Assembly (NCBI RefSeq): GCF_017377715.1
Contig: NZ_JAFVMF010000009.1
Span: 1 to 64,000 of the forward strand
DNA length: 64,000 bases
Direction: 5' to 3'
From: Acetobacter sacchari
GTDB lineage: Bacteria > Pseudomonadota > Alphaproteobacteria > Acetobacterales > Acetobacteraceae
In this document: positions 34,126-49,408 of the stretch, in pieces
How positions within the stretch are numbered: the stretch's first letter is position 1
How the letters are laid out: each line of letters starts with the position of its first letter
Notes under the pieces: model-generated
Database searches by the model: none
Seen by the model: only the letters and a program-made list of their open reading frames with translations
Told to the model about the DNA's origin: nothing
Program-made: the position numbers and the translations under genes

Positions 34126-34875
34126 TCAGGCGCCCCGCTCGGGCTTGCCACCCGCCAACCATGACGCCTGTCCGTTCCGTTGCCCGCCACCCAGCAACAA
34201 GGAACAAAGCCCAACGATCTGCAACGGCATGCCCGCCAGCAGCATGACGAAGCCCGCCCATCTCTGGTCTTGCAACGGCGTCAGATCCCAACGGCACAAA
34301 ACGTCGAGATAAGGCGCATAAAGCACATGGGAGGAGACCATCCAGATCACCGCGATGACGGTCATCGGCAGAGATCCGACCAGCACCAGAACCCCGACCA
34401 GAAAATCGCTCTTCAACACCCGGACGCCGGGTAAAATCTGCGCCCAGAACAACAGTCCCGCGAACAGGCCCAGCAACGCCAGGGGCGCGCTGAACAGGGC
34501 GTTGGCAAGAGATCTGTCGAGCACTGACGGCAGTCCGGTCGCGACGCCCAGCCCGGCGAACAGCACCAGCGCCACCATCGGATCGCGCAGCCACCCGCCC
34601 TTGCTCGGCATGAAGCCACCCGCTGGCATCGCCAGAAGCAGAAACGGCGGAACCACCTGTCCCATGACCATCAGGCCCGCCGTATATTGCGTCATCGACG
34701 CCAGAGGATCGTGCAGCCCCCATTCAGCCGCAATCCAGAGCCCGCACCCGAGGGCGCCTGCGACGCTACGCGCCAGACCGCGCCTGCGCGAGCGTCCCGC
34801 CCACAGCACGGCGCAGGCCGCCATGATCGCGGCCGCCGTCCAGACAAGAGCGACCCCGGTCGTCCATTCCCTCAT
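34126..34875 (-). CDS. ctaG: CtaG-family (caa3-type) cytochrome oxidase assembly membrane protein
   Basis: The 249-residue protein has about seven hydrophobic helices and the layout of the caa3_CtaG family (PF09678), including AAEWGLHDPLASMTQYTAGLMVMGQVVPPFLLL read from about residue 47, and SHVLYAPYLDVLC near 185. This family accompanies heme-copper oxidases and is thought to help copper insertion. The start overlaps the SCO1 stop by 4 bp, and it is the last gene of the minus-strand oxidase operon. Confidence 0.85.
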   Translation of the reverse strand: MREWTTGVALVWTAAAIMAACAVLWAGRSRRRGLARSVAGALGCGLWIAAEWGLHDPLASMTQYTAGLMVMGQVVPPFLLLAMPAGGFMPSKGGWLRDPMVALVLFAGLGVATGLPSVLDRSLANALFSAPLALLGLFAGLLFWAQILPGVRVLKSDFLVGVLVLVGSLPMTVIAVIWMVSSHVLYAPYLDVLCRWDLTPLQDQRWAGFVMLLAGMPLQIVGLCSLLLGGGQRNGQASWLAGGKPERGA

Positions 34876-35507
34876 CCCGCCCTCAAGGCCGCCCTGATGT
34901 CCGACGCCATGCCTGCCGGGTCGTTGAGTTGCGTCATCCCGTAGCGCGCAACAGCCCGACCAGCCGGACCGACAAGGGTGAGGACGGATGTATGGTCGAT
35001 CCGTCCGGCGCCACCAGAAGCCGACCAGGCGATCCCCCAGGCCTTCGCCGTCTGCGCAACAGCGCCGGGCTCGCCCGTCACGCCGATGGGCGTCGGATCA
35101 AAGTTGGAGAGGAACTCATGCAGTTCGCGCGGCGTGTCGTGCTTGGGATCAAGCGTCACGAAAACGACCCGAACCTTGTCCGCATCTGCGCCGAGTTGAG
35201 AGAACACCGGTTTCAATGAGTCCAGAACCATCGGGCACACATCAGGGCAACGGACATATCCGAAATAGACCAGCGCCGCACGGCCATGAAGGGAAGCAAG
35301 ACTGAAGCTGCGTCCCTTATCGTCCACCAGCGACAGGGCAGGAGCCGCATCTCCTGCGAGCGGCGACCCTGAAAAACGCCCGAACCCGCCGCCGAGCCCG
35401 GCGTAAGCCGCCAGTCCGGCGAGGGCGAGCGCACCGACGCAAAACCCCCGAAATACCGATCGGCGGAAGCGGGGCGCGTCCGCCGAGCCGCTCACCAGAG
35501 AACCCAT
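34872..35507 (-). CDS. SCO1/SenC copper chaperone
   Basis: SCO proteins deliver copper to the CuA site of cytochrome oxidase subunit II. The 211-residue product has one N-terminal helix (about 20-40) and a thioredoxin-fold domain. It has the copper motif YFGYVRCPDVCPMVLDSL (Cys87 and Cys91), VVFVTLDPKHDTP, and the conserved His in RIDHTSVLTLVG. It overlaps subunit I by 16 bp upstream and ctaG by 4 bp downstream. Confidence 0.94.
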   Translation of the reverse strand: MGSLVSGSADAPRFRRSVFRGFCVGALALAGLAAYAGLGGGFGRFSGSPLAGDAAPALSLVDDKGRSFSLASLHGRAALVYFGYVRCPDVCPMVLDSLKPVFSQLGADADKVRVVFVTLDPKHDTPRELHEFLSNFDPTPIGVTGEPGAVAQTAKAWGIAWSASGGAGRIDHTSVLTLVGPAGRAVARYGMTQLNDPAGMASDIRAALRAG

Positions 35508-37237
35508 CCGGGGGAATGGGTGACATTATGCAGGAACGGCCAGAGGATCGGAACGTAAGCCGCGACCGTCGCGACGGCGGTAAGGCCGACGAGCGCCCAC
35601 ACATGCTCAAGGCGGTTGGCGAGAACCGACGCGCCATGCCCCGTCGCCACAGGAATGGCGACGCCGGTTTCGTGGCTCACCGGTCCGCTCAGGGCCTGCG
35701 CAAACGGAACGGCCGGACGATCGGCGCGACGCCCGAACAGCAGCGTCCCGAAAAACACAAGGAAAAAGCTGTAGGTAGCGACCCACAGGATCACGCCACC
35801 CACTGCGATCAGCGTCGTCGGCGTCGCCGCGACGCCATAGAGAGCGTGATAGGTGTCGTGCGGTAGCGCCGAAACCCAGGCGCGGCGCGGCAGGCCATAC
35901 AGGCCGGCCCACTGCATGCCGATCGCGAAAATCGACATGCCGACAAACCACGTCCACACTGAGAAAAGGGCGATGCGTCGGCTGATCAGCTTTCGTCCTG
36001 TCAGATGCGGAATCATCCAGAACGCCAGCCCCATGAACGTCATTGCGGTCACGCTGCCGACCGTCACATGGAAATGTCCCGGCACAAACGTCGTGTTGTG
36101 AACGATCGCGTCCAGCTCCCAGCTTCCGTTGACGATACCGGTGGCGCCGCCAAGGATGAAGGTCAGCGCGCCGAGGACCTGCGCCGCCACACTCGGATCG
36201 CTCCAGGGCAGAGCGCGGAACCAGCCAACCAGCCCCGAACCGCCGCGCATGCGCCCGGCGTATTCAAGACTCAGCCCGAGAGTGAACGCCGTGATGATGC
36301 TGGGTATGGCCACCGACATGGTCAGCACAACAAGAATCGCCCGCCAGATCTGGGAGAATCCGGGATCTGAGAATTGATGGTGCGAACCGACCGGCAGCGA
36401 AAAGATCAGCAGCAGCGCAAACGTCATCCGCGCCATCGGGTCGGACGCCAGCTTACCGCCCGCTTGCCGCGACAGCAGGCCATACCAGGAGATATAAGCA
36501 GGCATCAGCCAGAAATAGACGATCGGATGGCCGGTCAGCCAGAACAGCGTGCGGTTGATCATCGGGTCGATCGTCCCGATCAAACCGAGCGACCACGGGT
36601 CAAGTTGCAGGATAAGTTCAGACAACGCCCCGACGCCCGCCAGCGCCCACATCAGCATGGTGACGAGGCTCATATACGTCACCAGCGGCGTGACGCAGCC
36701 CGGATGCGCGCGCTTCCACGCGGCCCGCATCTTCAGCAGGACCGGCAGCGGCTGCACGCTGCCCAGAGTCAGGATCGTCATTCCGAGATAGAAGAACGGG
36801 CTGCCTTTCAAGGGGGGATAGAACGTCCACAGGACGCTCGATGAATTGTCGAACATCGCGTAGATCAGGCTGAGCGCCCCAACCGCCATCAGGCCGAAAC
36901 ACGCGCCCCACAGCGCCATACTTGGGCGCTGTCCCAATTCCCGGGCGGGCAGGTAAACCAGAAGGCCACATGTCACAAAAAACGTGAAGACGTAGCCGTT
37001 CAGAACCCCATGAACCGTCAAACCCTGATAATAGGTATGAAAGATCGAGCGAAGGGCTGGATAGGCGTTCACGCCGTCATAGTTCAAGGCCTGCAGCGGG
37101 CCGATCGACGCGCCGATCAGCAGCGCGCAAAACCCCGCGATCAGGAAAAGCAGCATCATACGCCGCTCGGGGCGCCAGCCCTCGTCGGTTTCCACAGGAT
37201 AGACCACGGGACCCGGAGTAAAAGCGCGTCCGCTCAT
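35492..37237 (-). CDS. Cytochrome c oxidase subunit I, ba3-like (type B)
   Basis: This is the catalytic heme-copper subunit. The 581-residue protein has at least 13 hydrophobic helices, the low-spin heme ligand region YYQGLTVHGVLNGYVF, the CuB/Tyr region LTGHPIVYFWLMPAYISWY, HHQFSDPGFSQIW, and the heme ligands in FVPGHFHVTVGSVTAM. The VHGVLN and SHHQFSDPG patterns fit the ba3 (type B) family rather than the aa3 type. Its start overlaps the subunit II stop by 4 bp. It pumps or consumes protons while reducing O2 with electrons from cytochrome c. Confidence 0.94.
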   Translation of the reverse strand: MSGRAFTPGPVVYPVETDEGWRPERRMMLLFLIAGFCALLIGASIGPLQALNYDGVNAYPALRSIFHTYYQGLTVHGVLNGYVFTFFVTCGLLVYLPARELGQRPSMALWGACFGLMAVGALSLIYAMFDNSSSVLWTFYPPLKGSPFFYLGMTILTLGSVQPLPVLLKMRAAWKRAHPGCVTPLVTYMSLVTMLMWALAGVGALSELILQLDPWSLGLIGTIDPMINRTLFWLTGHPIVYFWLMPAYISWYGLLSRQAGGKLASDPMARMTFALLLIFSLPVGSHHQFSDPGFSQIWRAILVVLTMSVAIPSIITAFTLGLSLEYAGRMRGGSGLVGWFRALPWSDPSVAAQVLGALTFILGGATGIVNGSWELDAIVHNTTFVPGHFHVTVGSVTAMTFMGLAFWMIPHLTGRKLISRRIALFSVWTWFVGMSIFAIGMQWAGLYGLPRRAWVSALPHDTYHALYGVAATPTTLIAVGGVILWVATYSFFLVFFGTLLFGRRADRPAVPFAQALSGPVSHETGVAIPVATGHGASVLANRLEHVWALVGLTAVATVAAYVPILWPFLHNVTHSPGWVLW

Positions 37238-37767
37238 TCCGCCGCCCTCGCGTCAACGATGACCTGCCCGATCATGGCGTGATGCATCATGCCGCAGTAT
37301 TCGTTACAGATGATGCGGAACACGCCCGTCCGATGGAACGTATATTTCACTGTGCCGACGACGCCCGGAACAGCAGTCAGATTGACCGGCGTGCCCTGAA
37401 TTTCAAAACCATGCAGCACGTCGGAACTGGTGACGTAGAACGTGACCTCCGCGCCTTCCGGAACGTGAATAACGCCCGGCGTCCAGCGCCACGCCTTGCC
37501 GGTGATGTGCACCGCGTAGCTGTTCGGGCCCGTCTTGACGACCCTGCCTGTATCAGCAGCGGCGACTTCACGTTCCGCCGCCGTCGGATCGGAATGAAAT
37601 GACTGCGTCGTGGTGACGAGTCCGAAATCATGCACGACGTAAAACATCGTCGCGACGGTCAGCAGCGCCATCATCACGATCACACAGACGATGAACGCCC
37701 GCTCGTGACGTTCGGCCGAAGCGTGGAAGGCTTCATCGAACGGGGTCATCCCGGAATCTCCACTCAT
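37234..37767 (-). CDS. Cytochrome c oxidase subunit II (CuA)
   Basis: The 177-residue protein has one N-terminal membrane helix (about 24-46) and a periplasmic cupredoxin domain. The CuA ligands are in ICNEYCGMMHHAMIG near the C-terminus, with the upstream His in SSDVLHGFEIQGT. The short length and single helix match ba3-type subunit II. ATG 37767 was used; an ATG six codons on is possible. It is 15 bp after the 69-residue membrane protein. Confidence 0.94.
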   Translation of the reverse strand: MSGDSGMTPFDEAFHASAERHERAFIVCVIVMMALLTVATMFYVVHDFGLVTTTQSFHSDPTAAEREVAAADTGRVVKTGPNSYAVHITGKAWRWTPGVIHVPEGAEVTFYVTSSDVLHGFEIQGTPVNLTAVPGVVGTVKYTFHRTGVFRIICNEYCGMMHHAMIGQVIVDARAAE

Positions 37768-37782
37768 GATTTTTGCCCCACC

Positions 37783-37992
37783 CTACGCCCGGTGCAGGAA
37801 GATCAACGAAACCAGCACCCAGATAACCAGAATGCTGCTCAACACGACGCCAGCGACCACCCATGCGCCGACAGGACGCACCGCTTCCGGGCTCCAGTCC
37901 TGCGGGATGATCTGCGTCTCAGCGGAAGAGTGTTCCTGCATGGCCTCAACCTGTTCTTCGGGACCGCCTTTCGGCGTGATATCGACTGTCAT
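37783..37992 (-). CDS. 69-residue single-helix protein of the oxidase operon
   Basis: The product has an acidic cytoplasmic-type N-terminus (about 1-38) and one hydrophobic helix VVAGVVLSSILVIWVLVSLIF at about 45-65, ending HRA. Its ATG overlaps the stop of the cytochrome c gene by 4 bp, and subunit II follows, so it is translated as part of the operon. By position it resembles the small subunit IIa of ba3 oxidases. Sequence alone does not prove this. Confidence 0.7.
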   Translation of the reverse strand: MTVDITPKGGPEEQVEAMQEHSSAETQIIPQDWSPEAVRPVGAWVVAGVVLSSILVIWVLVSLIFLHRA

Positions 37993-38699
37993 TTCGCGAC
38001 GCCCGGCGATTGCGGCAGCGTGTAAATGTAGGCGGCGAGCGCCTGTATCTCCTCGTCCGTCAAGCCGTGAACTTCCGACATCATCATCTTGCCCATCGGA
38101 TCGCGGTCCTTTCCGGCCTTCCAGCCTGAAAGCTGCTGAACGACATAGGATGGCGACTGCCCGGCGATCGCCGGAAACATGGCGCCAAGCCCCTGCCCTG
38201 CCGGACCGTGGCAACCGGCGCACGGCATGACGTGCGCCGACATATTGCCTTTCTTGTAAAGATCATTTCCGTGCGCGATCTGCTCGGCGGACGTCGCGAT
38301 CCGGGGCGCCTCCACCGCCGGAGCCTGCGCAGCGTAATAGGCCGCCACGTCATCGATTTGCTTTGGCGACAGCTGTTTCGCGTATTGCGTCATCCACGCA
38401 CTGGGCCTCTGGCCTGATGCGAAGAACGTCAACTGCTGCTTGATGTAAGACGCCGCCACGCCGCCAATGCGTGGGATGGCAGCCTCGGCCTGCCCGGCCC
38501 CGCTCTCCAGATGACATGCCGCGCAGGCGGCGTGGCCCGCCAGCACGCCCTGCGTCGCTATCGCGCGTCCGGCCTCCACGTCCTGAGCCTCCGCGCGCGC
38601 AGACACACCTGCAGTGACCGCCATGGCGAGGCCCAGAGAAAATACAAGTCCGACGAGAGGACGTCCGCGACCGCGACCCTCGACGCGCAAACCAAACAT
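37989..38699 (-). CDS. Diheme cytochrome c
   Basis: The 236-residue product has a signal peptide (about 1-37, cleavage after the ARAEA region) and two cytochrome c domains with CAACH at 59-63 and CAGCH about 100 residues later. MFGLRV from ATG 38699 was chosen because AGGAGA lies 5 bases upstream; the frame is open to 38795. It is first in the oxidase operon and is probably the electron donor to CuA. Tandem-domain cytochromes of this type resemble cytochrome c4. Confidence 0.92.
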   Translation of the reverse strand: MFGLRVEGRGRGRPLVGLVFSLGLAMAVTAGVSARAEAQDVEAGRAIATQGVLAGHAACAACHLESGAGQAEAAIPRIGGVAASYIKQQLTFFASGQRPSAWMTQYAKQLSPKQIDDVAAYYAAQAPAVEAPRIATSAEQIAHGNDLYKKGNMSAHVMPCAGCHGPAGQGLGAMFPAIAGQSPSYVVQQLSGWKAGKDRDPMGKMMMSEVHGLTDEEIQALAAYIYTLPQSPGVAK

Positions 38700-38824
38700 A
38701 CAGGTCTCCTGACAGGTCTTCCGGCGGCTGGCGCTCTTTGCGTTCTTCATTCTGCGCCGCCACTGAAGCTTTACGTCACCTTTCCGCCCTGTCACCGCGT
38801 CAGATCACGCTGACGCAGCCTACC

Positions 38825-38842
38825 TGTCGCAGAATCGCGACA
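38825..38842. promoter_or_regulatory. Palindromic operator candidate, copy 1
   Basis: TGTCGC-AGAATC-GCGACA is a perfect 6-bp inverted repeat with a 6-bp spacer, 125 bp upstream of the cytochrome c start. It is 15 of 18 identical to copy 2. Confidence 0.6.
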
Positions 38843-39017
38843 TCGGGAGCGAACACTCGCCGCATCATCGGGCAAAAAAGGGGTAAAAACAAGGTTATGG
38901 AACCAATCCGAAACGACCGAAACGGCTCAGCCCTGACCCACGTAGAAGCTTAAAAGAAGCGTTTGCCGCGCCGCAGAATGATTATGCCCGACAACTCCAT
39001 CGCGTCACACGGCAAAC

Positions 39018-39035
39018 CGTCGCAGATTTGCGACA
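39018..39035. promoter_or_regulatory. Palindromic operator candidate, copy 2
   Basis: CGTCGC-AGATTT-GCGACA repeats copy 1 with three changes, two of them in the spacer. It lies 258 bp upstream of the PQQ-dehydrogenase start. Confidence 0.58.
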
Positions 39036-39293
39036 TATCGGCGCGCGTTCGAATTCCGGCGTGGTGACATATTCGTAACGTCACGGCACAGACAATCGGA
39101 CGTGACAAGCAAAACAACGAAAATCCGTCACGCCTAGTCAACAGATTCCAGGAACGCCTGATCGCTCTCGCCGCTCCGCCCATGGCCATCGCTCCGGTAC
39201 AGCGAGCCCCGGACACACGACGGAACGCCGCGATCGATCTCTCGTTCTAACTCATGGTTTCACTTACGAAACTTCCTCTCGGGAGATTTTGGA

Positions 39294-41048
39294 ATGAAGG
39301 TCGCTCTTCGTAACGCCGCCGCGACAAGATCACGAAAGTCCATTCCGTCGCTGGCCCTCGGGGCCGCGCTGGCGTGCGCCACAGCGCTGTCCATCCCTTC
39401 GCACGCCAAGGCGGACGGAGACGCGGGACCCTATTCGCCCGTCACCACCAGCCGCCTCGCCAATGCGTCGAAGGACAATGGCTGGCTGATGTACCGCCGC
39501 GACTACACCAGCTCGGGCTATGCACCCTTCACCGACATCAATACCGGCAATGTCGCGCAACTGAAGCCCGTCTGGGACTACGAAACCGGGATCAAAACCG
39601 GACACGAAGCCCCGCCGATCATCAACGGCGACTATATGTTCGTCAGCACGCCCAAAAACCACCTGCTGGCTTTTCAGGCAAGCACCGGCAAGCTCCTGTG
39701 GAAATATGAGCGCGACCTCTCCGAAGTCGGGTTGAAGACGATCTGCTGCGACGTGGTGAACCGCGGCGTGGCGCTGTACGGCGATAACGTCTACATGGCC
39801 ACGCTCGACAACCATGTGCTCGCGCTCGACGCCAAGACGGGGAAAATCGTCTGGGACGTTCAGCTTGAACCCGCCGATCTCGGCTACGCCATGACCCTCG
39901 CCCCGCTGGTGGTGAAGGGCAAGATCATGGTCGGCATCTCCGGCGGCGAATATGGCGGGCGCGGATTTATCGCGGCGCTCGACGCCAAGACCGGCAAGCA
40001 GGACTGGAAGACCTTCACTGTTCCGGAACCCGGCCAGCCCGGCGGCGACACCTGGCCGAAGGGCGCCTATACGACTGGCGGCGGCGCGACCTGGCTGACC
40101 GGCAGCTACGACGCCCAGACAGACTCCCTGATCTGGGGCGTCGGCAACCCGGGTCCGTGGCTCGCCACCTTGCGGCCGGGCGACAACCTCTATACCGACA
40201 GCGTCATCGCGCTGAACCCGGATAATGGCCATATCAAATGGCATTATCAGTACACGCCGCATGACACATGGGATTACGACGGCACCAACGAACCCGTTCT
40301 CGTCGACCTGACCTATGAAGGAAAGCCCTACAAGGCCCTTGTCAGCGCAAGCCGTAACGGCTGGTTCTACGCCATCGACCGTCAAAACGGAAAATTCATC
40401 TACGCAGAAAAATTCGCGCATGCGACTTCTGTTTCCGGATTCAAGGACGGCGTGGCGATCACCGATCCCGCGATGCGACCGGATATCGGCAAGGAAGTGT
40501 TCACCTGCCCAAGCTTCCTTGGCGGCAAGAACTGGTGGCCGATCGCGGTCGACCCGCAGAACCATCTGGCTTTCGTTCCAACCCTGCACACCTGCATGAA
40601 GATGAAGGGCAACCCGGTCTCTTATAAGGCTGGGCTGCCGTTCCTCGGCGAAAGCTTCAACGTCATGCACGATCCCGAGAATCCCGATCACTGGGGTTCG
40701 GTGCAGGCGATCGACCTGAACACTGGCAAGCGGGCCTGGTCGTTCGAATCCACCCTGCCCTGGAACGGCGGCATGCTCGCAACGGCGGGTGGGCTGGTGT
40801 TCTCCGGTAGCGCGGACGGCTATCTCTACGCTTTCGACGCCAAAACCGGCGACGTAAAATGGAAGAGTCCGAAAATGTCATCCGGCGTGATCGGCGTGCC
40901 TGCGACATGGAAGGTGGGCGACAAGCAGTACGTAGCCGTTTACGCGGGCTGGGGCGGCGGCGTGCCGATCTGGGGCGGCGATATGGCGAAGGACAAGGCG
41001 GTCCGCTCGATCCCGCTCGGCGGTCATCTCTACGTGTTCGGCCTCTAA
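39294..41048 (+). CDS. PQQ-dependent alcohol dehydrogenase with lanthanide-type metal site (PedH/ExaF-like)
   Basis: This periplasmic eight-bladed propeller enzyme oxidises alcohols using PQQ. The 584-residue protein has a signal peptide (about 1-40, ending SHAKA), the vicinal disulfide Cys151-Cys152, the metal ligands Glu219 (GGEYGG) and Asn285 (GNPGPW), the catalytic Asp327 and, two residues on, Asp329 in TWDYDGTNE. An Asp at this second position marks lanthanide-dependent XoxF/ExaF/PedH enzymes; calcium enzymes have Ala, Ser or Thr. CPSFLGGKNWWP and GWGGGVPIWGGD fit the PedE/PedH ethanol-type branch more than XoxF. There is no fused heme domain, unlike AdhA of acetic acid bacteria. The next gene is 12 bp on. 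Confidence 0.9.
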   Translation: MKVALRNAAATRSRKSIPSLALGAALACATALSIPSHAKADGDAGPYSPVTTSRLANASKDNGWLMYRRDYTSSGYAPFTDINTGNVAQLKPVWDYETGIKTGHEAPPIINGDYMFVSTPKNHLLAFQASTGKLLWKYERDLSEVGLKTICCDVVNRGVALYGDNVYMATLDNHVLALDAKTGKIVWDVQLEPADLGYAMTLAPLVVKGKIMVGISGGEYGGRGFIAALDAKTGKQDWKTFTVPEPGQPGGDTWPKGAYTTGGGATWLTGSYDAQTDSLIWGVGNPGPWLATLRPGDNLYTDSVIALNPDNGHIKWHYQYTPHDTWDYDGTNEPVLVDLTYEGKPYKALVSASRNGWFYAIDRQNGKFIYAEKFAHATSVSGFKDGVAITDPAMRPDIGKEVFTCPSFLGGKNWWPIAVDPQNHLAFVPTLHTCMKMKGNPVSYKAGLPFLGESFNVMHDPENPDHWGSVQAIDLNTGKRAWSFESTLPWNGGMLATAGGLVFSGSADGYLYAFDAKTGDVKWKSPKMSSGVIGVPATWKVGDKQYVAVYAGWGGGVPIWGGDMAKDKAVRSIPLGGHLYVFGL

Positions 41049-41060
41049 GGAGTTGATTTC

Positions 41061-42245
41061 ATGAATGCATTCAAAATCGCCGCCCTCGCCGCAACCCGCC
41101 TGACCTGCGTCGCCGCTCTCGGTATGGCCGCGGCCCCTCCGCACGCTGCGAACGCCGCCATTTCGGTATGTATCGACAAGTCCAGCCCGGCTCAGGCCAT
41201 GGACCATCGCGTCATTGACGCGGTGGCCCAGGAGCAACACACGTCCGCGACTGTCGTGCCCTTCGACGGCAACGCCGGGGGCGACGATGACGGTTTCGAC
41301 GTCAAAGAGTTTAAGAAACTTGCCTCGTCTCGTTGCGAACTCGTTCTCGGCTTCCCGGTCGAGGCGTCAAGCGGAGAGACGCCGGAAGGCACAAAGGCGA
41401 CGACGCCTTACGGAGAAACCGGCTTCGTCCTTCTGACGCCGCGCCAGCACGACGCCAGCACGTTAGACAAGCTTCCGGCGGGCACCACGGTCGCCGTCAC
41501 CTATCTGACACCGCCCAACCTGTATTTCGCAAAACACCCGAATATTCAGGCCGACATTCGCCCGGACGATGAACACACGCTTGCATCGCTTTTCCAGCAC
41601 AAGGTGCAGGCGGCCATGATCTGGCGCGCAAGTGCGGTGTCCGCTCTTGCGGACAAGAATCACGCGCGGGATTACTGCATGCACGCGCTGAGCGAACCGT
41701 ACTCCCGCTGGAACGTCGTCGCACTGTATGCGCCGCAGAACGAGCGCGCGGCTGCAGCGTTCATGAAAAGCGTCGCAGATCTCCAGAATGACGGGAAACT
41801 GGCCTCCCTGGTGCAGCCCTTCGCAACGGCGCCGCAAAAATCGGGGATTATTCTCGCCTCTGCCGACGCGCCGGCTCCGGCCGCCGCCGCAGCTCCGACT
41901 GGAGGAGACACCGCGCTCTACACGTCAGCCCAGGCGGACGCAGGCAAGAAGGAATACGCAGACAACTGCGCCCAATGCCACGGCGATAATCTCGAAGGCA
42001 TGGCTGGCCCCGCGCTCAAGGGCAAAAACTTTGCCTCGCCCAAGGCCAACTTCCACGTCAGCGATATCTTCACGATCGTATCCCAGAACATGCCCGCCAC
42101 CCAGCCGGGCAGCCTGACCCATGATCAGTACGTCAACATCATGGCGTTCCTGCTTCAGCAGAACGGAATGCCCGCCGGGTCGACCGCACTGACCTTCGAC
42201 GCCGCAAAATCCTCCAAGACGCCTCTTGTCTACAAAGGCGACTGA
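41061..42245 (+). CDS. XoxJ/MxaJ-like binding domain fused to cytochrome c
   Basis: The 394-residue protein has a signal peptide (about 1-33), then a region (about 34-265) like an extracellular solute-binding family 3 domain: ISVCIDKSS, CELVLGFPVEASSG, TTPYGETGFVLLTP, TTVAVTYLTPPNLYF and VQAAMIWRASAVSAL. An Ala/Pro linker (267-283) leads to a cytochrome c domain with CAQCH at 303-307 and a likely axial Met344 in QNMPATQPG. XoxJ/MxaJ proteins assist PQQ dehydrogenases, and XoxG/PedF-type cytochromes accept their electrons; here both roles appear on one chain. It lies 12 bp after the dehydrogenase, so it is surely co-transcribed. Confidence 0.83.
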   Translation: MNAFKIAALAATRLTCVAALGMAAAPPHAANAAISVCIDKSSPAQAMDHRVIDAVAQEQHTSATVVPFDGNAGGDDDGFDVKEFKKLASSRCELVLGFPVEASSGETPEGTKATTPYGETGFVLLTPRQHDASTLDKLPAGTTVAVTYLTPPNLYFAKHPNIQADIRPDDEHTLASLFQHKVQAAMIWRASAVSALADKNHARDYCMHALSEPYSRWNVVALYAPQNERAAAAFMKSVADLQNDGKLASLVQPFATAPQKSGIILASADAPAPAAAAAPTGGDTALYTSAQADAGKKEYADNCAQCHGDNLEGMAGPALKGKNFASPKANFHVSDIFTIVSQNMPATQPGSLTHDQYVNIMAFLLQQNGMPAGSTALTFDAAKSSKTPLVYKGD

Positions 42246-42290
42246 TCGTTACGACTCAAAAGCAACATGCAAAAAGAAAGAGTCCGTAAG

Positions 42291-43889
42291 ATGCAGACAA
42301 GACACAGCATCCGACTGGGGCTGCTGCTCACAGTCGCTGCCGGATGCGCGGTCGCAACATCGCCCCGCGTCGCCCGCGCAGACGATTACAGCGACCTGCT
42401 CGACATTCTCCGTGCAAAAGGCAGCCTGACAGGTTCTGAATACAACACGCTGCTTGCTAAACATTTGCACAGAGGACAAGCATCGGAAGTCAGGAGCGCG
42501 ACGCCCGTAAAAGGGCGTCGGACAGCGACTGCGAGGCACGGGACGACCACAGCGACGGTCGAAGATCCGGTCGTGTTCGAAGCGCAACGAGCCGCCGACG
42601 ACGCCGCTCGAAGCGCTCGTTCAGCGCAGGAAGCGCTCGCCGAAACGCGCATGAGCATGAAAAGCGCCAGCGTCGTACGCGTCGCTCCGTACGTTCCAGG
42701 CAAGGGTTTGACGTTCTCCGCCGGTCCCGTCGACATCACATTATCGGGATTTATCAATGGCTTCTATAGCTATAATTCTCCTGGCGGCGGGCACGGCGTA
42801 GCCGGTGGCGTATCCACCGGGTCCAGCAAATTCGACCAGTCGGGCGTCCGTAACGGCCTGCTTCCTGCAGGTCTGATCCTGAAAGTCGCGACGACGCAAT
42901 CGGGCATAGACCTTGCCGGCACGCTGGGCATGTATCCTGGCCTGAACAACGCCGCGAGCGGCGCCTTCAACGCTAATTCCGGCGGAAGCGCAGTCGGGCT
43001 CGGAACTCCTGGAATCGATTTCCGTCAGGTATTCATGACGGCAGGAACAAAGACTTTCGGAACCGTGAAAATAGGTCGCGACCTGGCGCTGTTCGGATCT
43101 GATGCGATTCTAAGCGACGCGACGTTGCTGAGCGTCGGCTCTACGGGCGGCACCGCTGCTCCCGGCAACACATCGCTCGGCCGTATCGGCGTCGGTTATG
43201 TCTACGCGGACTGGATCCCGCAGATTTCCTACGCTTCCCCCATTTACAAGGGCCTTCAGGGAACCATTGGCGTTTTTCAGCCTCTTGATGAATACAACTA
43301 CGCAGGATCTGGACTTTCCGCGACATCGATTCACCACAGTTCGCCTATGGTGCAGGGGAAAGTCACTTACGATTTCACCGTCAACAAGCTGACGGGCCGA
43401 ATCTGGTCCAGCTTCCTCGTGCAGCGCCAGCAAAGCCTGACCGGCAGCGACATCGACACGGGCGGACGCCCGCGTAGCGTCGTTGCGGAAGCTGGCGATA
43501 TCGGAACGAAGCTGACATGGCGCGGCGCCCAGCTCGTCGCATACTACTACCGTGGCAGCGGCCTCGGGACGACAGGTCTGTTCTTCGACGGCGTGGCGAC
43601 GAACGGACGCAAACGCGCGTCTGAAGGCTATTACGTTCAGTTTGGCTACAACTTCACGAAAAAATTCAAACTCGTCGGCAGCTACGGCGTGAGCAATCTC
43701 TACCGGGCTCCCGGTGATTATTCGCCCTCTCTTGTAAGGCGCAATGAGTCTGAGATCGGCGCAGGTTACTACGCATTGACTGACTGGCTGACGCTGGTTG
43801 CGGAATATGCGCATACGCGCTCCGCCGCGCGTGGTCCGTTCAAGGAAGACGACAGCACCATTTCCGCTGGCGCAGCCATCTTCTTTTGA
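42291..43889 (+). CDS. Outer-membrane porin-like protein
   Basis: The 532-residue protein has a signal peptide ending ARA (about residue 30), an Ala/Arg-rich coiled segment (about 90-120), and a beta-barrel region with VDITLSGFINGFYSYN, FRQVFMTAGTKTFGTVKIGRD, alternating aromatic strands and a terminal Phe (AGAAIFF), as in Gram-negative porins. It probably lets alcohol substrates or metals through. ATG 42291 gives a clean signal; an ATG eight codons upstream is also in frame. It is third in the dehydrogenase operon and is followed by a strong terminator. Confidence 0.82.
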   Translation: MQTRHSIRLGLLLTVAAGCAVATSPRVARADDYSDLLDILRAKGSLTGSEYNTLLAKHLHRGQASEVRSATPVKGRRTATARHGTTTATVEDPVVFEAQRAADDAARSARSAQEALAETRMSMKSASVVRVAPYVPGKGLTFSAGPVDITLSGFINGFYSYNSPGGGHGVAGGVSTGSSKFDQSGVRNGLLPAGLILKVATTQSGIDLAGTLGMYPGLNNAASGAFNANSGGSAVGLGTPGIDFRQVFMTAGTKTFGTVKIGRDLALFGSDAILSDATLLSVGSTGGTAAPGNTSLGRIGVGYVYADWIPQISYASPIYKGLQGTIGVFQPLDEYNYAGSGLSATSIHHSSPMVQGKVTYDFTVNKLTGRIWSSFLVQRQQSLTGSDIDTGGRPRSVVAEAGDIGTKLTWRGAQLVAYYYRGSGLGTTGLFFDGVATNGRKRASEGYYVQFGYNFTKKFKLVGSYGVSNLYRAPGDYSPSLVRRNESEIGAGYYALTDWLTLVAEYAHTRSAARGPFKEDDSTISAGAAIFF

Positions 43890-43896
43890 CGCTTCG

Positions 43897-43930
43897 GGTG
43901 ATCGGGTCAGGAAGCCCGATCACCTTTTTT
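43897..43930 (+). terminator. Intrinsic terminator of the dehydrogenase operon
   Basis: GGTGATCGGG and CCCGATCACC form a perfect 10-bp stem with an 8-nt loop, followed directly by TTTTTT. It lies 8 bp past the porin stop and next to the end of the minus-strand response regulator. Confidence 0.92.
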
Positions 43931-43933
43931 CTT

Positions 43934-44548
43934 TCAGTGCTCGGGTCTCGCCAACATCGCAAACCGCAACAGATCGGCGGTACTCGACACACCGAGTTTA
44001 GTCTTGATCAGGCTCATCGCATTTGCGACCGTCTTGTAACTGATGTCGACGCACGCGGCGATTTCGCTCAGTGTCTTTCCCTCAGAAAGCAGGCGTATCA
44101 GATCCAGATCACGAGCTGTGAGTTTCCCGAAATCACGACCGAGAACATCTGAATGCAGGGACAGTTGCTCCGCGATCGGCTTCTCGACGTAGATACGCCC
44201 CTCGGAAGCCTGCTTCACCGCGTGCAGCAACTCACTCGCATCGATATTTTTCGATATATACCCGCAAGCCCCCGCATCCAGTGCGCGGCGTGCGTAAATC
44301 GCCTCGGCATGCATGCTCAGCACCAGGCAGCGCAGTCCCATATCGCGCAATCGGGTCAGTAGCCATAAGCCGCCCGCTCCCGGAAGGCCCAAATCGACAA
44401 TGACCAGTTCCGGGCGACAACGCCGAAGCCAGTCCAGGGCAGAGTTTTCATCTGAAGCTTCAAAGACCTGCGCGCCCAGAGACGCCGACAGTAATTGCGC
44501 AAGCCCTGCGCGCACCACCGCATGATCGTCGACCAGCAGTATTTTCAT
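43934..44548 (-). CDS. NarL/LuxR-family response regulator
   Basis: The 204-residue protein has a receiver domain (about 1-120; acidic pair Asp7-Asp8, phospho-acceptor Asp52 in VIVDLGLPGAGG, the SMHAE and GYISKN motifs) and a LuxR-type helix-turn-helix (LTARDLDLIRLLSEGKTLSEIA then ISYKTVANAMSLIKTKLG). It overlaps the sensor kinase stop-start by 4 bp. It is of the same type as ExaE, PedR2 and UhpA, which control PQQ alcohol dehydrogenases or transport. Its target here is inferred only from position. Confidence 0.93.
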   Translation of the reverse strand: MKILLVDDHAVVRAGLAQLLSASLGAQVFEASDENSALDWLRRCRPELVIVDLGLPGAGGLWLLTRLRDMGLRCLVLSMHAEAIYARRALDAGACGYISKNIDASELLHAVKQASEGRIYVEKPIAEQLSLHSDVLGRDFGKLTARDLDLIRLLSEGKTLSEIAACVDISYKTVANAMSLIKTKLGVSSTADLLRFAMLARPEH

Positions 44549-45861
44549 GGGTACGCTCCAGTCAGGGAAGTCACTCTATCGTCCGGCACTGACAATATCA
44601 CAGTCCATCCGCTCTCCTGCCGGATTTCCAGACTTCCACCGATAATTTCCGCGCGACGCTTCATTCCGAGCAGACCAAAGCCTGTCGACGCCGCCTGAGC
44701 ACTCCCGTCGTCGTGAATCACAAGCCGCACCATGGAACTCTCTTGCACGACCGACAGCGAGACCCTCTTCGGAGCGCCATGACGTATTGCGTTGCTCAAA
44801 GCCTCCTGAGCAACGTGCGCAAGGACGACCCGCGTCTCTTCGTTAAGACTTTCTATGTCGCACTGGATATTTGTATCGATTGCGACAGACGGCGCGACCG
44901 CCTTCCAGAAGAGTTTCATATCTTCCAACGCGATACGCAGCGGAACATCGCACGTCGGATTCCCATGGAGACGATCAAGCATTTCTCGCACAACCTGTTG
45001 CGCGGACCGGGTCGTCTCCTTCAGGGTTTTTATCTGGGCCGACGCGGTATCGATCCGCTCTCCGGCAAGCGAGTGCTCGATCGCCGCCGCGAACGTGTTT
45101 ATGCCGAACAGGAGAGCTCCAACCTCGTCATGAAGATCGCGAGCGAACGCCGCGCGTTCTTCCTCCGCGATGCAGGCAAGCTGCTCCTGCAATCGGGCGT
45201 TTCGCTCGTTGGCATCACGCAAGGCCAGGGCCATGCGATTGAACGCCGCCGCCGCTATGGAGACCTCTCTTGGTCCACGCTCGGAAAGCACAATCCCTGT
45301 TTCGCCTTTTCCCAAACGCGACAAGCCAAATGTCAACGCGCCGAGTGGTTTCAGTCCGCGGGAAACAATAGCGCCGCAAAGCCCGGCCATAAGGGCCGAA
45401 AGCGCGCCAACGACCACGATTTCCTGTAGAAAATCCGACCATCGCTCCGCAGCCTCATTGGTGGGATCGGCGGACAGATTGACTGTGCGCCCATCACGTC
45501 CGACGGCGAGAAGAGCATCGGATATCTTCGGAGCGACAGTTCGTAAAAACCACGATGGAGGCGATGATGACGCAAGAGGGCCAGTCTCGCACAACACGCG
45601 CCCTTCCCGCGACACTACGCGCGCCGTCACATGACGATTGTCCCTGAATATCGCGCATACGGACTGCCCGTCCCTCTCATCCACCGACGCGGGCGGAAGG
45701 GCCGCAACCGAGTCACGCGCGCCGCGTAACGCAGACGACAACTCGACACGCACCGAATGGGTCGCCCGCAACATCGCAATCGCTGTGCCGAAACTGAAGC
45801 AGACGACGCTCGCGGAGACGACGGCCAACAGGAGCCTCTGACGGAGAGTCTGGATGGGCAT
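44545..45861 (-). CDS. HisKA_3-type sensor histidine kinase
   Basis: The 438-residue protein has a first membrane helix (about 9-32), a periplasmic domain of about 115 residues containing two Cys (SVCAIF and RVLCETG), a second helix (about 145-168), a HAMP linker, a dimerisation helix with FARDLHDEVGALLFG (phospho-His), and a C-terminal ATPase domain with ALSNAIRHG and GFGLLGMKRRAEIIGG. The ATG at 45861 has AGGAG nine bases upstream; the frame extends to 45936. It pairs with the response regulator. It is a NarX/UhpB-type kinase like PedS2 and ExaD. Confidence 0.9.
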   Translation of the reverse strand: MPIQTLRQRLLLAVVSASVVCFSFGTAIAMLRATHSVRVELSSALRGARDSVAALPPASVDERDGQSVCAIFRDNRHVTARVVSREGRVLCETGPLASSSPPSWFLRTVAPKISDALLAVGRDGRTVNLSADPTNEAAERWSDFLQEIVVVGALSALMAGLCGAIVSRGLKPLGALTFGLSRLGKGETGIVLSERGPREVSIAAAAFNRMALALRDANERNARLQEQLACIAEEERAAFARDLHDEVGALLFGINTFAAAIEHSLAGERIDTASAQIKTLKETTRSAQQVVREMLDRLHGNPTCDVPLRIALEDMKLFWKAVAPSVAIDTNIQCDIESLNEETRVVLAHVAQEALSNAIRHGAPKRVSLSVVQESSMVRLVIHDDGSAQAASTGFGLLGMKRRAEIIGGSLEIRQESGWTVILSVPDDRVTSLTGAYP

Positions 45862-46017
45862 ACCACGTCGCTCCTGAGCTGCCAGATCGATCAATCGTTC
45901 ACAATTGCGGTAAAATTCTGAGATTTTCTTCTTCATCGGGAATTATTCCCGTCGACATGCACTGTGCCGACTGATGAGATGCGAGGCAACCGATACAGAA
46001 AAACAAGAACGACGATC

Positions 46018-48381
46018 ATGCTCTCGAACCTCTACCGACGCACCGAAACACGATGGGGATTGTTCGCGGTCTGCCTCGGCTGCCCTGCGGTCGCATTCGC
46101 GCAGACTGCGACAACGCCTACGACGTCCCCCGTCTATGCGCAGGATCCTGAAGACATCACCGTCATCGGCACGTCTCCCCTCCCCGGCTCCAGCATCGAT
46201 CGCAACCGCCTGCCGGCACGCACATCCGTCCTGACCCAGAACTCTCTCTCAAACGAAGGGACGCCAGACCTTCTGCATGCTCTCGACACGCAGCTCGCGG
46301 GTGTAAGTCTGAACTATGCCTCTGGAAGCCCTTACCAGCCGACCGTCATGATGAACGGCTTCGAGGCGTCCCCGCTGCAGGGCGTGGCGCAGGGCGTGGC
46401 GGTTTACATGGACGGCATACGTTTCAATCAGGCGTTCGGCGACACGGTGAACTGGGACCTGATCCCTGATATGGCGATCAGCCGAGTTGCGGTCGAAGGC
46501 TCAAACCCGATGTTCGGTCTGAACGCACTCGGCGGCGCGCTGAACATCAACATGAAGAACGGGTTCAACACCCGGGCAGGCGGCGAAGCCGACATGTCCG
46601 GCGGATCGTTCGGAAAAATTCAGGCCGAAGGCGAATACGCCGGTCGCAGAGGAAACACAGCGTTCTACGTCGCTGCACGTGAAGTGCACGAAGATGGATG
46701 GCGTGACCTGCAAAGTTCCGACATCCAGTCTCTCTACGCGGATCTGGGCTGGAAGGACGAACGAACGGAAATCCACGGAAATCTGGATCTGGCTAACTCT
46801 GTTCTCAACGGTCCCGGAACTTCGCCAATCCAGTTGCTCCGCGCCGATCCCAAGGCGCAGTTCACGGCGCCGAACCTGATGGCGAACAAATTCATACAAT
46901 TCGGCCTGAACGGCCGTCACGAATTCAGCCAGCATCTTTCGATCCAGGGCCAGGCTTTTTATTCTTATTTCCAGCAGCGCGTTCTGAACGGCAACGCCGC
47001 CAACGACACGCCATGCGACGATAGCGAAAACGCAGGTCTTCTCTGTTCCGACGACGACACACCTTCCAGGACCGTTGGTGGCGGGACCATACCGGATTTT
47101 CTGAATGGCGGAATGTATTCGGAAATGGATCAGCAGACGACGAACACCAATAGTTACGGCGCCTCGTTGCAGGAGACTTTCACCCATAATATTTTCGGAT
47201 TCAAAAATCACGAAGTCGCCGGCGTAAGTTATAACGGCGCGCAGACCATGTTCTCCGCGACCAGCCTGATCGGCGGCCTTACGCCCTATACGCGCGTCTA
47301 TTACGGCCCAGGCGTGGTCATCGACGAACCGGGCGACAATGTTCCGGTCCGCGTTTCCGTAAGCGACACCTATGTCGGCGCATTCGTGGCCGACACGATC
47401 GACATTACGCCGCGTCTCTCACTCACTGGCTCCGCACGTTATAACTTTGCTGAAATTAACCTGCATGATCAAAACGGCGGCGACCTTTCGGGCAACCACG
47501 CCTACGGTCGTGTCAACCCGGCCGCCGGCCTCAGCTATCGGTTGACGGACTGGGCGAACATCTACGGCGGCTACTCGGAAGCCAACCGGGCGCCCACGCC
47601 AGCAGAGCTGTCTTGCGCCGGACCAGAAAACTCCTGCAGTCTGGCGAATTTTTTCGTCGGGGACCCAGACCTGAAACAGGTCGTGGCACGCACTTACGAG
47701 GCCGGATTGCGCGGCAGGTTCCTGCTCAACAAAAAACATAACAGCCTGAGCTACGACTTCGGTTTGTTCCGCACAGACGCCGACAACGACATCGTCTTTA
47801 TTAACAGCGAAACTCTCAATCGCGCATATTTCGCCAATATTGGCGGCACTCGCAGGCAGGGAGCTAAAGTCCATCTCTCGCTGCAACTTTCTCGGTGGTC
47901 AGCCTACCTGAACTACACATACACCAAGGCGACTTATAGAAGCAGCTTCACCGAGGACGCAGGCAGCAACCCCGCCGCAGACGCCGACGGAGACGTGACC
48001 GTGCGGCGCGGCAACCGACTGCCGGGCATTCCCAGCAGCAAGTTGACCGGCGGCGTAGATATGCGCATCACATCAATCTGGACGGCCGGGTTCGACTTCG
48101 ATCTACAGTCAGGCCAGTATCTCTACGGAGACGAAGCAAATCTCAACTCGAAGCTGCCAGGCTTCTTCGTGCTGAATTTTCACACGGCTGTGCAGGTTCT
48201 TCCCCACCTGCAGGTGTTTGGAAGCATCGCGAACCTGACCAACCGTCGCTATTATACATACGGCACGTTCTCGCCCACCAGTTCGGTCTATCTGGCTCAG
48301 GCGCCGAATGCCACCAACCCCCGCAGCTATAGCCCATCTGCGCCCATCGGCGGCTTTGGCGGAATCCGTGTGACGTTCTGA
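46018..48381 (+). CDS. TonB-dependent outer-membrane receptor in the PQQ-dehydrogenase region
   Basis: The 787-residue protein has a signal peptide (about 1-31, ending AVAFAQ), a plug with EGTPDLLHALDTQLAGVSLN, TVMMNGFEASPLQGVAQGVA, YMDGIRFNQAFGDTVNWDLIPD and GSNPMFGLNALGGALNINMKN, and a barrel ending GIRVTF. Plugs with the motif NxFGDTVNWDLIP occur in receptors such as LutH of methylotrophs, linked to lanthanide uptake, but also in others. The location beside a lanthanide-type PQQ dehydrogenase suggests uptake of a lanthanide chelate or of PQQ. The start choice (46018) rests on the signal peptide. Confidence 0.85.
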   Translation: MLSNLYRRTETRWGLFAVCLGCPAVAFAQTATTPTTSPVYAQDPEDITVIGTSPLPGSSIDRNRLPARTSVLTQNSLSNEGTPDLLHALDTQLAGVSLNYASGSPYQPTVMMNGFEASPLQGVAQGVAVYMDGIRFNQAFGDTVNWDLIPDMAISRVAVEGSNPMFGLNALGGALNINMKNGFNTRAGGEADMSGGSFGKIQAEGEYAGRRGNTAFYVAAREVHEDGWRDLQSSDIQSLYADLGWKDERTEIHGNLDLANSVLNGPGTSPIQLLRADPKAQFTAPNLMANKFIQFGLNGRHEFSQHLSIQGQAFYSYFQQRVLNGNAANDTPCDDSENAGLLCSDDDTPSRTVGGGTIPDFLNGGMYSEMDQQTTNTNSYGASLQETFTHNIFGFKNHEVAGVSYNGAQTMFSATSLIGGLTPYTRVYYGPGVVIDEPGDNVPVRVSVSDTYVGAFVADTIDITPRLSLTGSARYNFAEINLHDQNGGDLSGNHAYGRVNPAAGLSYRLTDWANIYGGYSEANRAPTPAELSCAGPENSCSLANFFVGDPDLKQVVARTYEAGLRGRFLLNKKHNSLSYDFGLFRTDADNDIVFINSETLNRAYFANIGGTRRQGAKVHLSLQLSRWSAYLNYTYTKATYRSSFTEDAGSNPAADADGDVTVRRGNRLPGIPSSKLTGGVDMRITSIWTAGFDFDLQSGQYLYGDEANLNSKLPGFFVLNFHTAVQVLPHLQVFGSIANLTNRRYYTYGTFSPTSSVYLAQAPNATNPRSYSPSAPIGGFGGIRVTF

Positions 48382-48427
48382 TATGACGGGAACACACCCT
48401 CTATGCAGGCCCTACGGGGCCGCAAGA

Positions 48428-49408
48428 TCAGGGCGCTACGACACTCGTCGAAGAATGACGCTTGATCTTACGGTGCAGGGTCGCGCGACTGATTCCCAGC
48501 TCCCTTGCCGCTGCGGACACGTTACCGCCGCATCGCTTCAACATGCGTTGGATCGCAGCGTGAGCGGCGTGAGCGGGATTCTCATGTCCAGACACGGAAA
48601 GAAGGTCTGGCAGGGTGACACCGCTATCATTACAACATCGAAACATAACCCGCGCAGCCTTGTTCGCGCCAACAATCACCTCATCGTCATCAAGGGCGAA
48701 CAACGCCTGCCCGTCGACCCCGAACGAAACTATCCGCCGCTCGGAGAACAACTCGCTGAACAGGCGTCGCTCGATGCGACGGGCTGCGTCCTCCACGACG
48801 AGCGACAACAGGGCTATGGCCCGCCCGTCGCTTTCCTGATCACAGATCGATATGTCGACGCCGCCAGCCACCCGCCCCTGCGGATCGTGAATGGGCGCCA
48901 TCGTGCAACTGAGCGGCGTATTGCGCGTGTAAAAATGCTGATCGCGGTGAATCGTAAGGGCGCGATCTTCCGCCAGACAGGTTCCTATGCCGTTGGTGCC
49001 CTCATGCGCTTCGTCCCACAACATCGCAGGTGTCAAACCCCATCGCGCAAACGTATCTTCGTCTCCAACGTCACAACGCTTTTCGAGTGTGACGCCGTGT
49101 GGGTCCGTCAGGAGCACGCAGTATCCGGGGCGTCGAACGGCGAGGGCGAGTCGGTCGAGAACCGGCGCGCTGGCCAGCAACAATGCGGCGTTTCGATCTC
49201 TAACCTGATCAAACTCGACGCCCGAAAGCTGGTTGGGGGGTCTTTGGGTGTCAGGCTCAAGCCCATAGTGCCTCAGGGAGCGCATCCACGACGCCAGAAG
49301 AGCGGATCTGCCGGAGGCGGATTCGTCCCTCAGCGAGTTATAAATCCGCTCGGCGTGTGGAACCTCTTCCCGTCTAATGCTGTACGCGAGTGATTTGTCG
49401 ATCACCAC
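48428..49408 (-). CDS. GAF plus Fis-type (AcoR-like) transcription regulator without AAA+ domain
   Basis: The 326-residue protein has an AcoR-like N-terminus with IRPPNQ-like TQRPPNQLSGVEF, a GAF domain (about 70-200; YCVLLTDPHGVTLEKR, HEGTNGIGTCLAED, VAGGVDIS), a short PAS-like piece (SFGVDGQALFALDDDEVIVGANKAA) and a C-terminal HTH_8 (Fis) domain with MLKRCGGNVSAAARELGISR followed by ATLHRKIKRH. The sigma-54 AAA+ domain present in AcoR is absent. It converges on the receptor gene and is the best candidate in the window for binding the 18-bp palindromes. Confidence 0.87.
   Translation of the reverse strand: MVIDKSLAYSIRREEVPHAERIYNSLRDESASGRSALLASWMRSLRHYGLEPDTQRPPNQLSGVEFDQVRDRNAALLLASAPVLDRLALAVRRPGYCVLLTDPHGVTLEKRCDVGDEDTFARWGLTPAMLWDEAHEGTNGIGTCLAEDRALTIHRDQHFYTRNTPLSCTMAPIHDPQGRVAGGVDISICDQESDGRAIALLSLVVEDAARRIERRLFSELFSERRIVSFGVDGQALFALDDDEVIVGANKAARVMFRCCNDSGVTLPDLLSVSGHENPAHAAHAAIQRMLKRCGGNVSAAARELGISRATLHRKIKRHSSTSVVAP

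Follow-up and report, generated by a model that had tools for sequence, protein, structure and literature searches.

A candidate alcohol-respiration locus in Acetobacter sacchari that pairs a PedH/ExaF-like PQQ dehydrogenase with a ba3-type cytochrome c oxidase

Introduction

The ped/exa cluster of Pseudomonas (PedH/PedE, PedF, PedG) brings together a pyrroloquinoline quinone (PQQ)-dependent ethanol dehydrogenase, a cytochrome c, a XoxJ-like binding protein, an aldehyde dehydrogenase and alcohol-responsive regulators, and for P. putida the acceptor that follows PedF is given as unknown (PMC12997753). A similar arrangement is described for Methylorubrum extorquens, where the exaF and xoxFGJ loci pair a dehydrogenase with partners G and J (PMC7391723) and where PedG- and PedF-like genes lie on the flanks of exaF (PMC12997753, in part). 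According to an excerpt of PMC4013037, the type a-II COX operon of alphaproteobacteria, which encodes a cytochrome c oxidase, often includes PQQ dehydrogenase genes. Here we describe a block of genes at positions 34126–49408 of a 64,000 nt stretch of the Acetobacter sacchari genome (G000, contig C166), referred to throughout as the window, in which divergent operons predicted to encode a PedH/ExaF-like PQQ dehydrogenase and a ba3-type cytochrome c oxidase carry the same palindromic sequence.

Results

Conservation of the block

An earlier note on this DNA had proposed a lanthanide-linked alcohol oxidation module with its own oxidase, receptor and regulators, and all of the parts that it named are present in the block, as recognized by Pfam or NCBIfam models and by motifs. 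Two overlapping sets of genomes were used for comparison: 15 named loci, returned by a single scan, that contain a close dehydrogenase, and a sample of 200 genomes of the family, in which a dehydrogenase or ba3 match was taken as close at E<=1e-150. Several records are common to the two (G042 is L012, G096 is L020, G128 is L017, G081 is L018, G043 is L019, and G174 is L023, with 100% identity over 3,018 bases), and the counts are not additive; G174 is covered by short loci at the block.

In the neighbourhood comparison that the earlier note had proposed, the order CtaG, Sco, COX1, COX2, diheme cytochrome, divergent dehydrogenase, fusion, porin, regulator, kinase and TonB receptor is kept in 8 of the 15 named loci, those of Acetobacter nitrogenifigens and seven Gluconacetobacter, while the remaining seven, which are more distant and include Beijerinckia, Acidiphilium and four loci from metagenome-assembled genomes (MAGs), have no close ba3 gene within the stretch. 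The GAF-Fis gene follows the TonB receptor in five of the eight order-keeping loci, and the stretches of the other three stop before or at its position. The block is more than a chance arrangement, because its order recurs in these eight named relatives. The A. nitrogenifigens locus (L009) shares 93.6% DNA identity with the window along 21.7 kb, and the two dehydrogenases are 99% identical.

Within the family sample the dehydrogenase is present in 15 genomes, a close ba3 in eight and both in seven; a close ba3 thus accompanies the dehydrogenase in 7 of 15 genomes and is found in 1 of the 185 others (Fisher p ~2e-8, with shared ancestry ignored). The pair is linked in G000, G042, G174 and G037, and in G037 the dehydrogenase and the ba3 operon are likewise divergent. 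A tree of the dehydrogenases places the ba3-linked sequences in one supported group (96/99) together with those of G086 and Beijerinckia, the order of these relative to G037 being unsettled.

The Gluconacetobacter stretches, the wider 39.8 kb of G042 among them, gave no match to the outer neighbours of the block in the window (TBDT1, TBDT2, BTAD and LeuS), and the block therefore sits at another site there. LeuS is 78–79% identical to its Gluconacetobacter counterparts and 79–81% identical to those of other Acetobacter; as these values are equal across the genera, the dehydrogenase identity of 81–83% needs no recent horizontal transfer. Bearing the other way on transfer are the different neighbours of the block and the three other sampled genomes of the genus that lack it.

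A palindrome shared by the divergent operons

Aligning the gap between the divergent operons revealed a palindrome with the consensus TGTCGCA-N4-TGCGACA. The 498-base gap in the window contains two copies with one mismatch each, TGTCGCA-N4-CGCGACA on the oxidase side (38825–38842) and CGTCGCA-N4-TGCGACA on the dehydrogenase side (39018–39035), both of which are proposed operators; they are the only sites with at most one mismatch in the 64 kb, for which base composition predicts 0.011. Over nine aligned gaps, 15 and 16 of the 18 palindrome positions are invariant, compared with 102 of 462 positions outside them; the palindrome sites also hold the three longest invariant runs. A third palindrome, between the receptor and GAF-Fis genes of five Gluconacetobacter loci (L012–L015 and L023), precedes an aldehyde dehydrogenase gene (recognized in L012 by Pfam Aldedh, in a frame picked with a codon-GC filter). 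A search of 20 whole genomes, with G034 covered in fetched stretches only, found seven perfect palindromes, all at the dehydrogenase locus (five before the dehydrogenase and two before an aldehyde dehydrogenase gene lying ahead of the dehydrogenase), with ~0.28 expected from base composition in 70 Mb. The statement in the earlier note that co-function could be deduced from position only is thus superseded, since the palindrome is common to the two divergent operons.

Copies with one mismatch also occur just before a membrane-type PQQ dehydrogenase gene in G174 (L128:4174) and G042 (L135:4070). A search for TGTCGCA in the open-access literature gave nothing related among the matches listed.

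The GAF-Fis regulator

At the far end of the block (48428–49408, minus strand) lies a gene for a 326-aa protein in which Pfam recognizes GAF and HTH_8, the GAF and Fis-type helix-turn-helix combination of AcoR/DhaR. It does not qualify as a sigma-54 activator, as Pfam shows no AAA+ sigma-54 domain and the DhaR model gives 91 bits against 551. Among 14 genomes for which a dehydrogenase stretch was available, the palindrome is present in all eight with a GAF-Fis protein of at least 42% identity and in none of the six with a distant one (32–34%) or none, a split with a chance probability of 1/3003, the genomes being related to one another. Four more sites adjoin genes for GAF-Fis paralogues of 40–43% identity, in C122 of the window genome and in G042, G174 and G123. 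From this co-occurrence, both at dehydrogenase loci and beside paralogues, we infer that the palindrome is the binding site of this GAF-Fis subfamily, and the GAF-Fis protein, rather than the two-component system, is the likely regulator of the dehydrogenase. The two-component system was rejected as owner of the palindrome on its distribution, in that six of the eight loci with palindrome and GAF-Fis gene have no kinase/regulator pair there.

The paralogue in the window genome (L131, G000:C122:48001-57000) has the same palindrome and is divergent from an acetoin-dehydrogenase-like operon (E1 alpha, E1 beta and a lipoyl/hydrolase protein). Cross-talk between paralogues that share the palindrome is possible.

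The ba3-type oxidase operon

The oxidase operon lies on the minus strand and, as the earlier note had it, diverges from the dehydrogenase and includes a diheme cytochrome. The best PDB matches of COX1 (35492–37237) are with the Thermus ba3 oxidase, at 505–536 bits over the top 18 rows (1EHK 509 bits, 3EH3 536 bits), followed by an unrelated type at 294 and then 61 bits. COX2 (37234–37767), recognized by Pfam COX2, carries the CuA motif C-x3-C-x3-H (CNEYCGMMH). By these matches the operon appears to encode a ba3-type (family B) cytochrome c oxidase. Further along are genes for a Sco/SenC copper chaperone (34872–35507; Pfam SCO1-SenC, 120 bits) and for a CtaG-type assembly factor (34126–34875; Pfam Caa3_CtaG, 68.5 bits), the latter kept in the eight named relatives. 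The diheme cytochrome c (37989–38795; Pfam Cytochrom_C), with CxxCH at residues 91 and 192, is a probable donor to CuA. Between it and COX2 is an open frame of 69 residues (37783–37992), and tblastn found a similar short frame at the same position in 12/12 ba3 operons checked; it probably encodes a small one-helix oxidase subunit, which we take to be IIa-like.

The genome has two COX1 proteins, that of the ba3 enzyme and that of a bo3 quinol oxidase (1122 bits, cut-off 1020); as the latter is a quinol oxidase, ba3 appears to be the sole cytochrome c oxidase found in the window genome. G037 carries ba3 and bo3 oxidases, with the dehydrogenase and ba3 genes adjoining, and has two weaker, unclassified COX1 matches (C14, 780 aa; C2, below the cut-off). 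Searches of this genome, which is estimated to be complete, with two models for the halves of the bc1 cytochrome b gave no match to either half; the same searches were positive in 19/20 and 4/5 genomes. In G037, then, cytochrome c seems to be reduced directly by dehydrogenases. A close ba3 is absent from eight of the 15 dehydrogenase-bearing family genomes, six of which (G043, G049, G128, G178, G146 and G187) have a COX1 that passes the cytochrome c oxidase cut-off; G081 has just a quinol-oxidase-like COX1 and G034, which is 82% complete, has none.

The PQQ dehydrogenase

The dehydrogenase (39294–41048, plus strand; 584 aa) scores 599 bits with the TIGR03075 model of methanol/ethanol PQQ dehydrogenases (cut-off 480), whose propeller family it therefore joins. 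Among PDB structures PedH scores highest (418 bits), and a type II quinohaemoprotein (358), XoxF 4mae (353) and the calcium enzyme ExaA (344) come after it; a plain XoxF label was ruled out, the XoxF structures reaching at most 353 bits. The extra Asp noticed earlier is present, the alignment giving W-D-Y-D-G in the window protein and XoxF, W-D-F-D-G in PedH and W-D-F-S-G in ExaA; a Ser at this position in the calcium enzyme is also given in an excerpt of PMC10409515. D327-Y328-D329, the other ligand positions E219 and N285, and the Cys151-Cys152 pair are invariant in 15 aligned dehydrogenases. The enzyme thus appears to be of the PedH/ExaF kind with the extra Asp, and because these residues are invariant and PedH/XoxF-like its use of a lanthanide is likely. 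In 12 of 14 genomes there is an aldehyde dehydrogenase gene within the fetched stretch, and an acetyl-CoA synthetase gene is present in L022 (a Sinobacteraceae MAG) and Burkholderia multivorans; such neighbours point to ethanol-like alcohols, which would be oxidized to acids, as the candidate substrate.

Other dehydrogenases of this general type were encountered. L138 (G000:C166:186001-195900), 140 kb away from the block, encodes a PQQ alcohol dehydrogenase of 727 aa with its own cytochrome domain, an aldehyde-dehydrogenase-like protein and a GAF-Fis paralogue (36%), and contains no palindrome at up to one mismatch. In G037 (L056, C9) a second dehydrogenase, 37% identical, comes after the first.

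The binding-domain/cytochrome fusion and the porin-like protein

Adjoining the dehydrogenase gene, as is usual for XoxJ/MxaJ/ExaJ genes, is a gene (41061–42245, plus strand) in which a cytochrome domain and a periplasmic binding-protein fold share one frame, in agreement with the earlier note. The cytochrome domain spans residues ~288–370 and has a single CxxCH; its place is like that of XoxG/ExaG, and it falls short of the cytochrome cL (MoxG/XoxG) model TIGR03872 (32 bits, cut-off 147.8). Residues ~30–257 are modelled as a periplasmic binding-protein fold (mean predicted local distance difference test score, pLDDT, 69.8 overall) that matches MxaJ (5sv6, Z 16.5) and XoxJ (6onp, Z 15.9) within the top 50 rows; several amino-acid binding proteins score higher, up to 18.2, and in this model the fold match is not specific to XoxJ. 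Both domains are in one frame in 11 of the 15 family genomes with the dehydrogenase and in two frames in three, and in one the cytochrome part alone was found. A fused gene next to one for a WDYDG dehydrogenase is also seen on plasmids of Burkholderia and Caballeronia (of 72,556 plasmid records 6 matched, and two of these were examined), and the fusion itself is hence not peculiar to the acetic acid bacterial group. On the B. multivorans plasmid (L159) a gene for a high-potential iron-sulfur protein, a possible alternative electron carrier, is directly 3' of the fusion gene.

The next gene (42267–43889, plus strand) had been called a porin. A barrel-like model with porin DcaP as the best Foldseek match agrees with this, and there is no match in Pfam or NCBIfam; the beta-strands are those of a weak model (pLDDT 45), and a specific porin fold was not assigned beyond 'barrel'.

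The TonB receptor, the two-component system and the flanking genes

Family models recover the NarL-type response regulator (43934–44548, minus strand; Pfam Response_reg and GerE), the HisKA_3 sensor kinase with HAMP (44545–45936, minus strand) and the TonB-dependent receptor (45964–48381, plus strand), as they did the GAF-Fis protein. In a class sample of 385 genomes, with two candidates scored per genome, receptor homologues were found in at least 16, the window genome included. At 16 receptor places outside the family, a homologous kinase and regulator adjoin in six, and no dehydrogenase, fusion or pqq gene was found within the stretch at any of the 16. Receptor and two-component system thus appear to form a separable sub-module, contrary to the earlier note, and the metal supply suggested in that note is not borne out: the receptor and pair occur away from the dehydrogenase in 6 of 16 loci, and there is no sign of a lanthanide ligand. 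Members of the receptor family are near a dehydrogenase in G187 (with pqqB, pqqC and pqqE), in L022 and in B. multivorans (near pqqA and pqqB). PQQ, a lanthanide complex or another compound might be what the receptor takes up; with homologues beside pqq genes in G187 and Burkholderia, a PQQ-related role remains a candidate. Identification of the receptor as PqqU itself was rejected (88.9 bits with the NCBIfam model, cut-off 1200).

Two further TonB-dependent receptor genes adjoin the oxidase side of the block (29031–31307, plus strand; 31380–33938, minus strand), both common to A. nitrogenifigens L009 and not found in the Gluconacetobacter stretches. On the other side is a gene for a BTAD-domain regulator of 739 aa (50019–52238, plus strand).

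Discussion

We propose that the block works as an inducible periplasmic unit for alcohol respiration, a reading to which we would give roughly two chances in three. A soluble PedH/ExaF-type PQQ dehydrogenase, probably lanthanide-dependent, would oxidize ethanol or other short alcohols after being loaded with cofactor by the XoxJ-like domain of the fusion protein. Its electrons would pass to the cytochrome domain of the same fusion protein and on to the CuA of ba3, directly or through the diheme cytochrome, and ba3 would reduce O2. The GAF-Fis protein would bind TGTCGCA-N4-TGCGACA before the dehydrogenase and oxidase genes and, in Gluconacetobacter, before that for aldehyde dehydrogenase, such that one operator, whatever the sign of its control, would switch pathway and oxidase together. 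For the two-component system, control of the TonB receptor next to it is the most likely role. The full path to O2 suggested in the earlier note is therefore retained for the dehydrogenase, fusion and ba3, which form a recurring block with a shared palindrome, and weakened for metal supply.

Several observations weigh against this proposal. The association counts ignore shared ancestry. Homologous genomes with the genes unlinked, which the earlier note regarded as telling against it, exist in part: the pair is on separate contigs in G086, G096 and G196, the linkage fails in Acidiphilium as in G086, and 8 of 15 genomes have no close ba3, to be set against the linkage in G037 and the eight named loci; G164 has ba3 without the dehydrogenase. 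The window genome has one copy of the bc1 cytochrome b gene, and ba3 could therefore serve bc1 as well as the dehydrogenase. In the Gluconacetobacter genomes G042 and G174 another COX1, at 665.4 and 669.8, falls just short of the 670.75 set as the threshold for a cytochrome c oxidase; for this reason we dropped the general claim that ba3-linked genomes are without aa3, and the apparent absence of another cytochrome c oxidase is kept only for the window genome and for G037 with its two weaker matches. Both palindromes in the window are imperfect, sites with at most one mismatch are hardly enriched in the 20 genomes (39, versus 33 for a backward control), and at up to three mismatches the window has nine sites against 5.2 by shuffling, a number reached in 7 of 100 shuffles. 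Neither palindrome nor GAF-Fis gene was found in the 34 kb around the linked pair of G037. Finally, a linked aldehyde dehydrogenase gene is absent from the window, as it is from the G037 stretch.

The presence of bc1 cytochrome b lends itself to another explanation, that these are neighbours without a joint job, ba3 being a general bc1-fed oxidase and the dehydrogenase, receptor and regulators separate units in a chromosomal hotspot. The ba3 gene of G164, the unlinked pairs of G086, G096 and G196 and the six of 16 loci at which receptor and two-component system occur without a dehydrogenase are all in keeping with this; it sits poorly with a palindrome common to both operons, an order kept in eight named loci, a linked pair in G037 without detectable bc1 and a co-occurrence of 7/15 against 1/185, and we consider it unlikely.

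Rather less probable still are two explanations that concern parts of the block. The receptor might import PQQ or some other non-lanthanide ligand and the dehydrogenase might use calcium, making this a PQQ rather than a lanthanide module; the receptor homologues beside pqqB, pqqC and pqqE in G187 and near pqqA and pqqB in B. multivorans, and the weak similarity to PqqU, fit such a role, but pqqB, C, D and E are all present in the window genome itself, and the extra Asp of W-D-Y-D-G, where the calcium enzyme ExaA has Ser, is invariant in 15 dehydrogenases. The other would have the dehydrogenase switched, in response to alcohol or lanthanide, by the two-component system instead of GAF-Fis, by analogy with PedS2/PedR2, which governs the rare earth element switch in P. 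putida (PMC6115532), and in keeping with the position of the NarL-type pair 45 bases downstream of the porin gene. Outside the window, A. nitrogenifigens and Gluconacetobacter, no such pair was found near the dehydrogenase and the pair stands beside the receptor instead, and six loci have the palindrome and GAF-Fis without it, which puts this reading on a par with the PQQ module.

Should the alcohol-respiration unit operate as proposed, this lineage of acetic acid bacteria might possess a quinone- and bc1-independent alcohol line running from a lanthanide dehydrogenase through the fused and diheme cytochromes to ba3, in which a single sigma-54-independent GAF-Fis operator would govern both the electron donor and the terminal oxidase; we put this forward tentatively, at somewhat less than even odds. 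If true, it would depart from the quinol-oxidase-only respiration of acetic acid bacteria, in which replacement of the cytochrome c oxidase has reportedly been shown, to go by the title of a paper cited in PMC9171043. With a terminal oxidase linked to a PedH-type dehydrogenase, apparently under the same operator, the route after the cytochrome becomes testable by single gene removals, and the palindrome offers a concrete candidate operator for a GAF-Fis regulator without AAA+.

The enzyme, its partner and the oxidase are each of known kinds, and the novelty would lie in joining ba3 to a PedH-like dehydrogenase under one putative GAF-Fis operator, of which we found no description in the open-access literature. 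The plasmid loci of B. multivorans and Caballeronia share with the block a WDYDG dehydrogenase and a fused binding-domain/cytochrome gene and have a GAF/Fis sigma-54 regulator, together with a TonB receptor, acs and a porin in B. multivorans; they differ in a fusion identity of just 28–31% and in having neither a palindrome at up to two mismatches nor a ba3 match in the stretches. Subunit I and the CuA-bearing subunit II are like those of the Thermus ba3 (family B) oxidase, to which the operon adds the diheme cytochrome, CtaG and Sco, and it faces the dehydrogenase. The oxidase of the type a-II COX operon is aa3-type in the excerpt of PMC4013037, whereas that of the block is predicted to be ba3-type. 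AcoR/DhaR resemble the regulator in their GAF and Fis-type helix-turn-helix, and its paralogue with the same palindrome is divergent from an acetoin-dehydrogenase-like operon, but the window protein has no AAA+ sigma-54 domain (the comparison is with the DhaR model). In M. extorquens G and J are separate genes and the lanthanide receptor LutH is in a separate lut cluster (PMC7391723, in part). Unlike the ped/exa cluster of Pseudomonas, the block has cytochrome and binding protein in one polypeptide, a proposed regulator of the GAF-Fis type that lacks AAA+, and a linked ba3 oxidase whose operon carries the same palindrome.

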